Assembly: GCA_027490055.1 (NCBI GenBank)
Contig: JAIXYV010000069.1
Location: 1-42,330 of the forward strand
DNA: 42,330 nt
Origin: Bacteroidota bacterium
GTDB taxonomy: Bacteria; Bacteroidota; Bacteroidia; NS11-12g; UBA955
Direction of reading: 5' to 3'
Shown here: piece after piece, positions 3,878-16,112 of the stretch
Layout: each line of letters begins with the position of its first letter
Position numbering within the stretch: the first letter of the stretch is position 1
Program-made: the position numbers and the translations under genes
Notes under the pieces: model-generated
Seen by the model: the letters and a program-made list of their open reading frames with translations, nothing else
The model's database searches: none
What the model was told of the DNA's origin: nothing

Positions 3878-3883
3878 TACCCA

Positions 3884-3954
3884 GTAGCAGAGGATAAATC
3901 CACGCTACGGGTTTCAACCCTGTAGCAGAGGATAACTCCACGCTACGGGTTTCA
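3884..3954. repeat. Two tandem copies of a REP-like stem-loop unit
   Basis: A 33-bp sequence starting GTAGCAGAGGATAA and ending GCTACGGGTTTCA occurs at 3884-3916 and again at 3922-3954 (38-bp period), with one mismatch. In each copy GTAGC and GCTAC pair across a 15-base spacer. The stem extends outward through ACCC/GGGT, with one unpaired base before GTAGC, so each unit folds as an imperfect hairpin. The join between the copies, GGGTTTCAACCC, is itself a palindrome. This resembles repetitive extragenic palindromes rather than a coding or CRISPR structure. It sits between convergent genes (ftsZ + and the lipoprotein -). Confidence 0.75.
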
Positions 3955-12364: not shown

Positions 12365-13288
12365 ATGTTTACCCTTGCAATACACGGCGGTGCTGGTACT
12401 ATTAACAGTTCGCTGATGACGCCCGAATTGGAGGCGCAATACCTTCATGGTTTATCTTTGGCCCTCAATGCCGGAAAATCTATATTGACTTCTGGAGGTT
12501 CGGCTACTGACGCTGTAGTGGCCGCTGTTGTAGAGCTTGAAAATTTCCCATTATTTAATGCCGGCAAAGGTGCAGTATTCAATCACATCGGTCAGCATGA
12601 AATGGATGCGGCTTTAATGTCGGGTTCAGATCTTAAAGCTGGCGCAGTCTGTGGTGTCAAACATATCAAAAATCCTGTTCTTTTAGCTAAAGCTGTTATG
12701 CAGCAATCAGAGCATGTGATGATGGCTGGAGATGGTGCCGAAGCTTTTGGTAAAATGGTAGGCGCCGAATTTGCTGATGATGCCTATTTTCATACCGATC
12801 AGCGCTATCAGCAGTGGCTGGACATCAGAGATACCGACCAATTTCAACTCGACCATTCCGCAGCTTCTAATAAAAAAATGGGGACTGTTGGTGCAGTCGC
12901 TCTGGACAGCCACGGTCACTTAGCGGCAGCAACCAGTACCGGGGGCATGACCAACAAACGCTTTGGCAGAGTAGGCGATTCGCCCGTCATTGGAGCTGGC
13001 ACTTATGCCAACGATGCCACTTGTGCTATCTCTTGCACCGGTCACGGAGAATTATTTTTGCGCGCTGTCGTTGCCTACGACATCAGTTGTCTGATAGAAT
13101 ATAAAGGCTATACTTTAAAAGAAGCTTGCGACCTTGTCGTTATGAAAAAACTTGTTGACATCAAAGGAGAAGGCGGACTGATTGCTCTCGACGCGCACGG
13201 CAACATCGAACTGCCCTTTAACAGCGACGGTATGTACCGGGCGTCTGTGGATGTTAATGGGAATGAATTCTTCGGGATTTACCGCTGA
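12365..13288 (+). CDS. iaaA: Isoaspartyl peptidase/L-asparaginase (plant-type, Ntn hydrolase)
   Basis: This enzyme cleaves isoaspartyl dipeptides and L-asparagine, and it matures by self-cleavage into two chains. The 307-residue product has the family start FTLAIHGGAGT. The nucleophile is Thr174 in MGTVGAVALD, preceded by a short linker that is cut before the Thr. Next come SHGHLAAATSTGGMTNKRFGR split by domain turns, and GDSPVIGAGTYA, which lines the active site. The length matches the family. No signal peptide is seen, so it acts in the cytoplasm. It starts 48 bp after the E2 stop, with no clear promoter in between, and co-transcription is possible. The gene is followed by the longest gene-free stretch of the window. 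Confidence 0.94.
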   Translation: MFTLAIHGGAGTINSSLMTPELEAQYLHGLSLALNAGKSILTSGGSATDAVVAAVVELENFPLFNAGKGAVFNHIGQHEMDAALMSGSDLKAGAVCGVKHIKNPVLLAKAVMQQSEHVMMAGDGAEAFGKMVGAEFADDAYFHTDQRYQQWLDIRDTDQFQLDHSAASNKKMGTVGAVALDSHGHLAAATSTGGMTNKRFGRVGDSPVIGAGTYANDATCAISCTGHGELFLRAVVAYDISCLIEYKGYTLKEACDLVVMKKLVDIKGEGGLIALDAHGNIELPFNSDGMYRASVDVNGNEFFGIYR

Positions 13289-13290
13289 TG

Positions 13291-13350
13291 CCTCGTTCCT
13301 CGTCCCTCGTCCCTCTAAGGAAATAGGAATTAGGAAATAGGATTTAGGGG
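13291..13350. repeat. Two adjacent heptamer micro-arrays
   Basis: After the iaaA stop the + strand has CCTCGTT, CCTCGTC, CCTCGTC, CCTCT in tandem (13291-13316). A second 7-bp series GGAAATA, GGAATTA, GGAAATA, GGATTTA follows (13319-13346), ending in a GGGG run. Both have a period of 7. They are too short and degenerate for a satellite array but too regular for chance. The role is unknown. A similar C/T-rich tract follows ftsZ. Confidence 0.65.
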
Positions 13351-13398
13351 GGCAGGATGGGATTAAATTAAAGTTTTCTTTTGATTTTACTGGGTTTC

Positions 13399-13546
13399 CA
13401 GTGTCGCTAGACACTGAATATTGGTAGATATATTGGCGCCGCACAATTATCCCAGTCCCAACACGGCGTCTAAAGACGCCGTGTTGGGACTGGGATGTTT
13501 TTCTTTCATGTCTTTATCTACCAAGATTAGGTGTCTAACGACACCT
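13399..13546. repeat. 148-bp nested palindromic element
   Basis: Three hairpins lie in a row: 13399-13416 (7-bp stem CAGTGTC, loop GCTA), 13449-13496 (22-bp perfect stem, loop TAAA) and 13529-13546 (7-bp stem AGGTGTC, loop TAAC). All have a GTC-N4-GAC core. In addition the outer parts are inverted copies of each other: 13399-13430 and the reverse complement of 13515-13546 agree at 26 of 32 positions, including TTGGTAGATA against TATCTACCAA. The whole element is therefore symmetric around the central hairpin. It could be a REP/BIME-like or MITE-like element, or a strong terminator. It contains no ORF. Confidence 0.8.
13449..13496. terminator. Perfect 22-bp hairpin, possible terminator for iaaA
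   Basis: Arms 13449-13470 and 13475-13494 plus two more pairs (to 13496) are exactly complementary, with a TAAA loop. On the + strand the arm is followed by GTTTTTCTTT (13497-13506), a T-rich tract. This could stop transcription coming from iaaA, although the stem is much longer than a usual terminator. Confidence 0.5.
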
Positions 13547-13648
13547 TAAGATTCGTCTTAATGTAAAATTGTATCACATTGTTAATTGGGCCTTGTTTAA
13601 CTAATAAATGATAAAAGAATATCCCAAATTCATAATTAATAAAAACCC

Positions 13649-13673: not shown

Positions 13674-16112
13674 ATGAAATCCATTTTTACAAGTTTATTG
13701 CTGCTTTTTTGCGCATCTCTTGCTGCACAAATTGAAACCCCGCACATCCATTATCTATCTGATCCCAATGCCGCTGAGCGCCAGCATAGCGTCGATATCA
13801 CCCACATGAAAGTGGAAGTGAAATTTGAACCTGAAGCCGGCAAAGTGATTGGTAAGGTCACCCACGAATTTACAACCCTGCAAAAAGACATAGACACGCT
13901 GTTTTTTGATGCTCCTGGTATCCGTATTATCAGCGCAGAAATTGATGGTGCTCCAGTGCCTTTTAACATCAATCCTGAAGGGGTGGTTTTGCGCTTTGCC
14001 AAGCATCTGAACTGGGATGAGAAACACAGTGTGGTTTTTAATTATGAAGCAACTCCAAAGAAAGGGATCTACTTCATCGGTTGGAACCAAGCTGAAAACA
14101 CTGGCAAAGCAGATATCAATTACATCCGCAAACAAATCTGGACCCAAGGTCAGGGCATCGATAACCGCTACTGGATTCCGATGTACGACTGCATGAATGA
14201 TAAATTCACTACCGAAACAGTGGTAACCATGCCACAGCCTTATAAGGTCCTGTCAAACGGTCGTAAGCTCAGCGTTAAAGACAATAATGATAAAACCTCT
14301 ACTTGGCACTACCATCTGGAAAAACCACATGCTGGTTATTTATTAATGTTAGGCATCGGTATTTATGACGTAAAAGAAACGGTCACCAAACGCGGTACGC
14401 CGGTGCAATTCTGGTACTATCCTGAGTTCAAAGACCGTGTTGAACCTACCAGTATCTATACCGAAAAAATGATAGAACTTCTGGAAGATGAAACAGGTAC
14501 ACCTTACCCTTGGGGTTCATACTCTCAGATCATGGTGCAGAACTTCTTATACGGCGCTATGGAAAACACTTCTGCTACCATCTTTGGTGATTTCTTTACA
14601 GTAGATGCCAGAGGTTTTAAAGACAGAAATTATATGGGCGTCAACTGTCACGAACTTACCCACCAATGGTTTGGTGATTTGATCACTGCCAGAAGTGGTA
14701 ACGATGTATGGTTACAAGAGAGTTTTGCTACATTCTATCCTAAATTATTCTTTAAAGATATCGAAGGTGTGGATGCCTATCAATGGGCTGTGAGAGGCGA
14801 ATACAACAGCGCCATCGAGCAAAGTAAAAAAGACCATTTTCCAGTAAGACATACTCAAGCTGGAACTACCAGATTATACCCTAAAGGATCTGCTGTGTTA
14901 AGCATGTTGCGCTACCAGTTAGGCGACGAGAATTTCAAACGTTTCATTCAACATTACCTGTCTGTTAATGGTTTTAAAAATGTAGAAGCATGGGATTTTC
15001 AGAAGGCCCTGAAAGATAAATTAGGAATGAACTACGACTGGTTCTTCGATCAGTGGATACACCGCGGGGGCGAGCCTCACTACAAAGTATCTTACACCAA
15101 CGATGGAAAAACTATTGCCTTTAAAATTTTGCAAACACACACCACCAACGGACACGTGCGTTGCTTTAAAATGCCAATAGATTTTGCCGTGTATTACAAG
15201 AATGGCACTGTAGACAGACGCAACATCTGGGTAATGGATACCACCGAACAAACCATTAGTTTTCCCAATACTGGCGGGGCTATCGACTTCGCTCTGTTTG
15301 ATGAAGAAAGCAAAGTGATGAAGAAAGTGGAGTTCAAAAAATCTTTCGATGAATTATCCGCACAAGCCACAAAAGCCGTCAACATGATTGACCGTTATGA
15401 TGCTATCGCTGCCATGTCGGGCATTGCCTTAAACGAAAAAATGAAGTTCCTGCAAACGCGTTATGCGGCCGAAAAACATTATGCTATCAGAGCAGAAATT
15501 GCCAAGCAATTAGCCAACTGGAAAATTTTAAACAAATGGTATGTCAATATCGTTAAAGATGCTAAATCTGAAGTGAAAAACGCCTTCATTGCGGCGGATA
15601 CCAATGTGATGGATCAGAAGGACATTTTTGTGATGCTATTGAAAGACAGCAGTAATGTTGTGGTTGAAAATGCTTTGGATAAATTGATGCAGTGCAAAGA
15701 CCTTGATCAGAAAGAAAAAATCAAATACCTGAAATCTGTAGAGCACTTGAGTGGTCAGAACAACAATATCAGAACCAAATGGCTGGAGTATGCCGTGATG
15801 AACATCTATGAGCCAGAACTCAATGCATCATATTCAAAAGAACTCACCAGACTTTGCAGTCCGCTTTACGAATTCAGAACCCGCGTGAATGCGGCCAATG
15901 CCCTTAAGCGTTTGGGCTTCCTGAACGAAGAAATTGCTAACAATCTGCTGGAAGCTTGTTTAACCTATAACAGTCGCCTTTCTCAGCCTTGTGCTTCGGT
16001 ATTAAAGGAGTTGAAAAAAGGCAAGGCAGAGAATGATATACTGCAAGCTGAAATCAATAAACTCAGCAACGAGCAGCAGGCTGTGCTAAAAACATTGGGC
16101 TTAAAAGACTAG
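13674..16112 (+). CDS. Secreted M1 family zinc aminopeptidase
   Basis: This 812-residue enzyme removes N-terminal residues from peptides. It has a signal peptide (hydrophobic KSIFTSLLLLFCASLAAQ, cleavage likely after Ala18 or Ala19). The exopeptidase motif GAMEN is at residues 294-298. The zinc site is HELTH (His326, Glu327, His330) with the third ligand Glu349 in WLQESFATF. The C-terminal region has helical repeats of the ERAP/HEAT type (about residues 560-810). The length is close to that of many periplasmic M1 enzymes. The gene is alone, with its own -7 box, between a palindromic element upstream and a hairpin downstream. It may feed on peptides in the periplasm, which is inference. Confidence 0.93.
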   Translation: MKSIFTSLLLLFCASLAAQIETPHIHYLSDPNAAERQHSVDITHMKVEVKFEPEAGKVIGKVTHEFTTLQKDIDTLFFDAPGIRIISAEIDGAPVPFNINPEGVVLRFAKHLNWDEKHSVVFNYEATPKKGIYFIGWNQAENTGKADINYIRKQIWTQGQGIDNRYWIPMYDCMNDKFTTETVVTMPQPYKVLSNGRKLSVKDNNDKTSTWHYHLEKPHAGYLLMLGIGIYDVKETVTKRGTPVQFWYYPEFKDRVEPTSIYTEKMIELLEDETGTPYPWGSYSQIMVQNFLYGAMENTSATIFGDFFTVDARGFKDRNYMGVNCHELTHQWFGDLITARSGNDVWLQESFATFYPKLFFKDIEGVDAYQWAVRGEYNSAIEQSKKDHFPVRHTQAGTTRLYPKGSAVLSMLRYQLGDENFKRFIQHYLSVNGFKNVEAWDFQKALKDKLGMNYDWFFDQWIHRGGEPHYKVSYTNDGKTIAFKILQTHTTNGHVRCFKMPIDFAVYYKNGTVDRRNIWVMDTTEQTISFPNTGGAIDFALFDEESKVMKKVEFKKSFDELSAQATKAVNMIDRYDAIAAMSGIALNEKMKFLQTRYAAEKHYAIRAEIAKQLANWKILNKWYVNIVKDAKSEVKNAFIAADTNVMDQKDIFVMLLKDSSNVVVENALDKLMQCKDLDQKEKIKYLKSVEHLSGQNNNIRTKWLEYAVMNIYEPELNASYSKELTRLCSPLYEFRTRVNAANALKRLGFLNEEIANNLLEACLTYNSRLSQPCASVLKELKKGKAENDILQAEINKLSNEQQAVLKTLGLKD

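Follow-up and report, generated by a model that had tools for sequence, protein, structure and literature searches.

The window examined here, a stretch of 42,330 nucleotides, is contig C40 of the G000 assembly (3.02 Mb, 121 contigs; estimated 96.8% complete). It contains a gap without genes between the genes at 12365-13288 and 13674-16112 which, from reading their translations, we take to encode an asparaginase-like protein and an M1 aminopeptidase-like protein. In this gap lies a composite palindrome of 148 bases made of three hairpins (Table 1), which is far beyond what can be expected by chance. Folded as a single strand, the region 13370-13580 reaches -93.9 kcal/mol against -44.6 (sd 3.8) for shuffled sequences (z = -13). 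A preliminary description of this DNA had already pointed to the gene-free location, to the outer arms (13399-13430 and 13515-13546) as inverted copies of each other and to a perfect 22-bp central hairpin with a TAAA loop, and these observations were confirmed, the arms agreeing at 26 of the 32 positions. On the plus strand the letters of the right outer hairpin are AGGTGTC-TAAC-GACACCT. Near the start of the aminopeptidase gene, and downstream of the element, TATATTTG resembles a Bacteroidota promoter, and it recurs in the sister species. The element is adjoined by degenerate short-word repeats (CCTCGTCCCTCGTCCCTC, AATAGGAATTAGGAAATAGG; window 13288-13350), and comparable stretches built of other words are seen at locus L011 of the same genome and at a sister site (L100). 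Elsewhere in the window, a 38-bp repeat is present at 3879-3954 as two tandem copies that are 95% alike.

Table 1. Positions of the composite element and its parts in the window.
Feature	Position	Strand	Remark
Whole composite element	13399..13554	.	Unit, central hairpin, inverted unit and the 8-base tail common to the three copies
Left unit hairpin	13399..13416	+	CAGTGTC-GCTA-GACACTG
Left tag	13417..13427	+	AATATTGGTAG; GTAG starts 14 nt past the loop
Central hairpin	13449..13496	.	Perfect 22-bp stem, loop TAAA
Right tag	13518..13528	-	Minus-strand reading AATCTTGGTAG
Right unit hairpin	13529..13546	-	Minus-strand reading AGGTGTC-GTTA-GACACCT
Tail	13547..13554	.	TAAGATTC; the C46 and C121 copies have TTAGATTC at this place

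The element is not unique in its genome, uniqueness being the outcome that the preliminary description had named as counting against its reading. The genome search that it proposed, done by BLAST, turned up two further copies, one complete (C46:269-428) and one in which the left unit is missing (C121:10642-10756); these copies were found by search only. The copy number is low. All three copies are intergenic and two of them are complete inverted pairs, as in REP, BIME and REPIN repeats. The outer units are near-identical among the three copies and the tip of the central hairpin, ACGGCGTC-TAAA, is kept, the loop being reversed (TTTA) in the C121 copy. The outer part of the central stem differs between copies at 7-9 positions, and every change is compensated on the other strand. 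The earlier suggestion that pairing rather than the bases is conserved is thus borne out by stems which differ and are nevertheless perfectly paired. A tail, T[AT]AGATTC, follows 3' of the right hairpin in all the copies. An isolated degraded piece, AGGTATCGTTAGACACTG, with AATATTAGTAGAT about 70 bases off, was also seen at L011 (G000:C13:39391) and may be a decayed copy.

It could be argued that this is the ordinary intrinsic terminator of the asparaginase-like gene and that the additional inverted repeats are accidental, an explanation that we consider improbable. At the window copy the central hairpin is followed on the plus strand by GTTTTTCTTT, which gives a GC-rich hairpin and then a T run and scores terminator-like. 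Nevertheless neither the C46 nor the C121 copy keeps the T run directly 3' of its hairpin. Moreover a terminator leaves the tagged outer units, the copies elsewhere and the linkage to transposase genes described below without explanation. Termination may be a side effect at the window site.

The repeating unit of the element consists of a short hairpin and, at a constant distance 3' of it, the tag AATATTGGTAG. A BLAST search with the element in 59 relatives gave no match outside its own genome because only the tags and the pairing are conserved; the plasmids and phages searched gave no match, nor did the viral contigs. A scan of the named genomes for GTCGNTAGACNNNNAATNTTGGTAG led to Flavobacterium sp. 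Leaf82, '[Flexibacter]' sp. ATCC 35103 and one Paludibacteraceae assembly, the first two having complete composites with a different central hairpin. The pattern TAG-N6-AATNTTGGTAGA was matched in 18 of 296 Bacteroidota genomes; many of these matches are preceded by hairpins of quite different stems and some are chance matches without a hairpin. As a rough control, the same scan with seven free bases instead of six matched 11 genomes, the own genome being absent from them. When inverted pairs of units were searched for, the order of unit, central hairpin and inverted unit was found at L024, L041, L043, L057 and L063 and in the own copies, with a spacing of 21-38 nt on each side of the central hairpin. 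L047/L062 presented arrays of inverted unit pairs with no clear central stem.

For an unbiased test of the hairpin, 130 tag sites were taken first, no hairpin being required. A perfect 5-bp stem was present at the fixed place in 58 of them, compared with 1.3% after shuffling of the 5' part, and the commonest loop-to-GTAG distance is 14. In a gapless alignment of 18 units six of the seven stem pairs change on both sides. This gives 38 two-sided cells, where shuffles gave 15 and slid alignments 3-7, although these units had been chosen for a 5-bp stem, which biases the inner five pairs in favour of pairing. What is conserved in the stem is its pairing, and the tag and its distance are fixed. The GTC-N4-GAC core, by which the preliminary description had united the hairpins, is indeed present in those of the window, but it does not define the family: the stem letters of the relatives vary, whereas the tag and the loop-to-GTAG distance are constant. 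The window element belongs to a widespread and apparently undescribed family of mobile-looking Bacteroidota repeats. In the open-access literature searched, neither the letters of the tag nor Bacteroidota repeats of this kind were found described, and an earlier description elsewhere is possible.

Genes of the Y1 transposase family (PF01797) were present in 12 of the 14 genomes tested and several of them directly adjoin units. Eight of 19 pattern matches lay within 2.6 kb of such a gene, the expected number being 0.13. The proteins linked to units are about 140-165 aa long, contain the motifs DH[IVL]H (or NHVH), WQ and Y[IV]xNQ..HH and match solved transposases of the IS200/IS605 type (IS608 and ISDra2-type). 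By alignment they show DH[IV]H, WQ and Y---Q--HH, which are the stated marks of TnpA-Y1 subclass 1.2 (PMC6006769). This subclass was listed in the 2018 classification without REP sequences and without IS-type ends (PMC6006769). The automatic REP search of that work required GT[AG]G 0-2 nt 5' of the stem (PMC6006769), and units with a 3' tag would therefore be missed.

Subclass-1.2 loci were then gathered across the order to which the genome of the window belongs. When no GC filter was applied, AT-rich hairpins dominated the hairpin scan. Relative to control loci, the subclass-1.2 loci had a 3.8 times higher density of GC-rich hairpins, with GTAG standing out (38 times) at an offset of +9 from the foot of the hairpin. 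Under a strict definition 75 units were counted in 151 kb around 53 subclass-1.2 genes against 9 in 136 kb of control (p = 5e-13), and of the 29 nearest units 22 had their tag pointing to the gene (p = 0.008). As the loci are mutually related, these p values overstate independence. The type of tag clusters on a tree of 52 of these proteins, with 25 changes against 34.8 in shuffles (none of 200 was as low); for the tags GGTAG and TGTAG the changes were three each against 7.0. A strict unit was found at only 24 of the 53 gene loci and some protein clades had none, so that the link may cover only part of the subclass. The gene is adjoined by three composites in tandem in the one-contig genome G264 and by two in G134. 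Other arrangements were also seen near these genes. Upstream of the gene in L084 (G264:C1:2692761 region) there are repeated blocks in which a GTAG tag is both 3' to a hairpin and immediately 5' to a second one (CAACGGATTTTAATCCGTTG), which looks like a combination of the two tag positions, and a head-to-tail array of units of about 25 bp (TAGGCATGAAATATTGGTAG...) adjoins a subclass-1.2 gene in L050 (G234:C42:12722 region).

The asparaginase and aminopeptidase genes are also adjacent in three sister species (G008, G010 and G014). The gap is short in both G008 and G014, and the element is absent from it. The gap of G010 (L101, G010:C133) holds a complete subclass-1.2 gene with the motif YISNQEEHH, preceded by hairpin-tag units CCCCAKCGGGGTGACATATTTGTAG and followed by inverted units. 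Its layout, hairpin-GTAG [gene] CTAC-hairpin, therefore parallels the hairpin-GTAG [central hairpin] CTAC-hairpin of the window. As the units of G010 and of the window differ in their letters, we do not propose that either arrangement is what remains of its counterpart. G009 belongs to the same genus and has a gene which falls with the GGTAG clade on the protein tree; downstream of this gene comes CGTACCTACGGCACG, which is nearly the arm of the Flavobacterium central hairpin, and then CTAC and a hairpin.

A MITE that has terminal inverted repeats, derives from a common insertion sequence of the DDE type and is unrelated to Y1 enzymes would be a further explanation, to which we give about as little weight as to the terminator. 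In its favour, a short non-coding centre is bordered by 32-bp outer arms that form an imperfect inverted repeat, and the copies are dispersed; MITEs and ERIC-like imperfect palindromes are likewise short non-coding inverted-repeat elements of intergenic DNA. These are however usually tied to double-strand DDE transposases, whereas here the units adjoin Y1 genes. Moreover each arm is itself a hairpin with a covarying stem, for which double-stranded recognition of terminal repeats has no need, and the difference between the left and the right hairpin is the same from copy to copy. By eye no target-site duplication was noted in the flanks of the copies, the sister sites being too diverged to fix a junction, and no transposition event was observed. 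A structured non-coding or cis-regulatory RNA of no known family would suit the very stable fold and the covarying stems, yet it is the least credible explanation, given that no Rfam family reached its gathering score and that the units are found in either orientation, as arrays and in the surroundings of transposase genes. The Rfam matches were at chance level and to unrelated hairpin families. An attC or integron site was likewise rejected: R-box-like letters are present, but their order is opposite to that of attC.

Compared with known systems, the element has features in common with the REP, BIME and REPIN repeats and the REPtrons of class-2 TnpA-REP (RAYT) enzymes, which also consist of short GTAG-tagged hairpins in inverted pairs, mostly intergenic, with conserved tag and pairing, and in which, as in the relatives here, a Y1 gene is flanked by its own type of hairpin. 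Canonical REPs have GT[AG]G 0-2 nt 5' of the hairpin foot (PMC6006769). In the present units GTAG is 3' of the hairpin, 7-9 nt off and about 14 nt from the loop, and for this reason they fall outside the published definition. In addition, the hairpins are here outside and the tags inside the pair, a central hairpin lies between them, the linked enzyme is of class 1 (Y-x-x-x-Q) and not of class 2 (NP motif), and copies are few whereas hundreds are typical of REPs. The REP/BIME-like reading of the preliminary description thus holds as regards a repeated composite of inverted hairpin units linked to Y1 genes in relatives, but not as regards a canonical REP with a classical RAYT partner. The double-foot REPs of subclass 2.4 and the atypical structures of subclass 2.6, the latter mostly in Bacteroidota, are likewise palindromes that are associated with Y1 enzymes and deviate from the plain REP plan (PMC6006769). 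Their descriptions set them apart, as they were reported for class-2 enzymes and the double-foot REPs have the tag outside one hairpin (PMC6006769). The IS200/IS605 elements (IS608, ISDra2; TnpA subclass 1.1) have a class-1 Y1 enzyme and hairpins near both ends. Unlike these, the window element is non-coding, with no gene inside 13399-13554 and so no tnpA of its own, and its two ends are inverted copies. The linked proteins moreover have WQ and Y-x-x-x-Q-x-x-HH, which place them in subclass 1.2, without IS properties (PMC6006769).

We therefore regard the element, with a probability of about 0.75, as a REP-like composite palindrome that is non-autonomous and belongs to the type found alongside subclass 1.2 HuH/Y1 transposases in Bacteroidota. 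The units would be mobilised by the transposase. Each end would be a recognition unit, formed by the short hairpin and the GTAG tag about 14 nt from the loop, and the two units face each other across the central hairpin. TnpA may bind the folded units in single-stranded DNA, for example on the lagging-strand template, and may cut it through a 5'-phosphotyrosine, close to either the tag or the outer foot. The cut segment could then be moved or rearranged, as is done by IS200/IS605 and REP enzymes. In such a scheme the central hairpin would occupy the place of tnpA in a parent arrangement hairpin-GTAG [tnpA] CTAC-hairpin and may serve to bring the two units together.

We also lean, with less assurance, towards the wider proposal that, across Bacteroidota, TnpA of subclass 1.2 have their own REPtron-like systems, whose substrates are units of a hairpin and a 3' GTAG and three-hairpin composites. 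If this is true, the REP/RAYT relationship would have a second, independent counterpart within the IS200 class, and it suggests that IS200-type enzymes became paired with palindromic repeats not only in class 2 but also in class 1. For a transposase subclass that has had no settled function since its description in 2018, it would provide a candidate substrate and hence the means of a direct test. Furthermore it would account for a set of palindromic intergenic Bacteroidota repeats of which no description was found in the literature.

In the own genome of the window no match to a subclass-1.2 gene was obtained at E <= 1e-10, and because of this its three copies are probably orphans, either inert remnants or dependent on a gene from outside. 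The one PF01797 gene found there, in C67, has the motif YIHHNP and is class-2-like. A RAYT-type transposase as partner, for which the preliminary description had proposed a test, was not supported, as this NP-motif gene has other palindromes and the genes adjoining units are of class 1, subclass 1.2, with Y-x-x-x-Q; a cognate class-2 NP-motif gene flanked by the repeats, as in a REPtron, is not what is found. The C67 gene is flanked on both sides (L027:1098-1130 and 1939-1971) by the perfect palindrome CGACACCTTCCAGGTC-TAA-GACCTGGAAGGTGTC, which is possibly its own REP-like repeat. The GTC-TAA-GAC tip of this palindrome resembles the tip of the central hairpin in the window.
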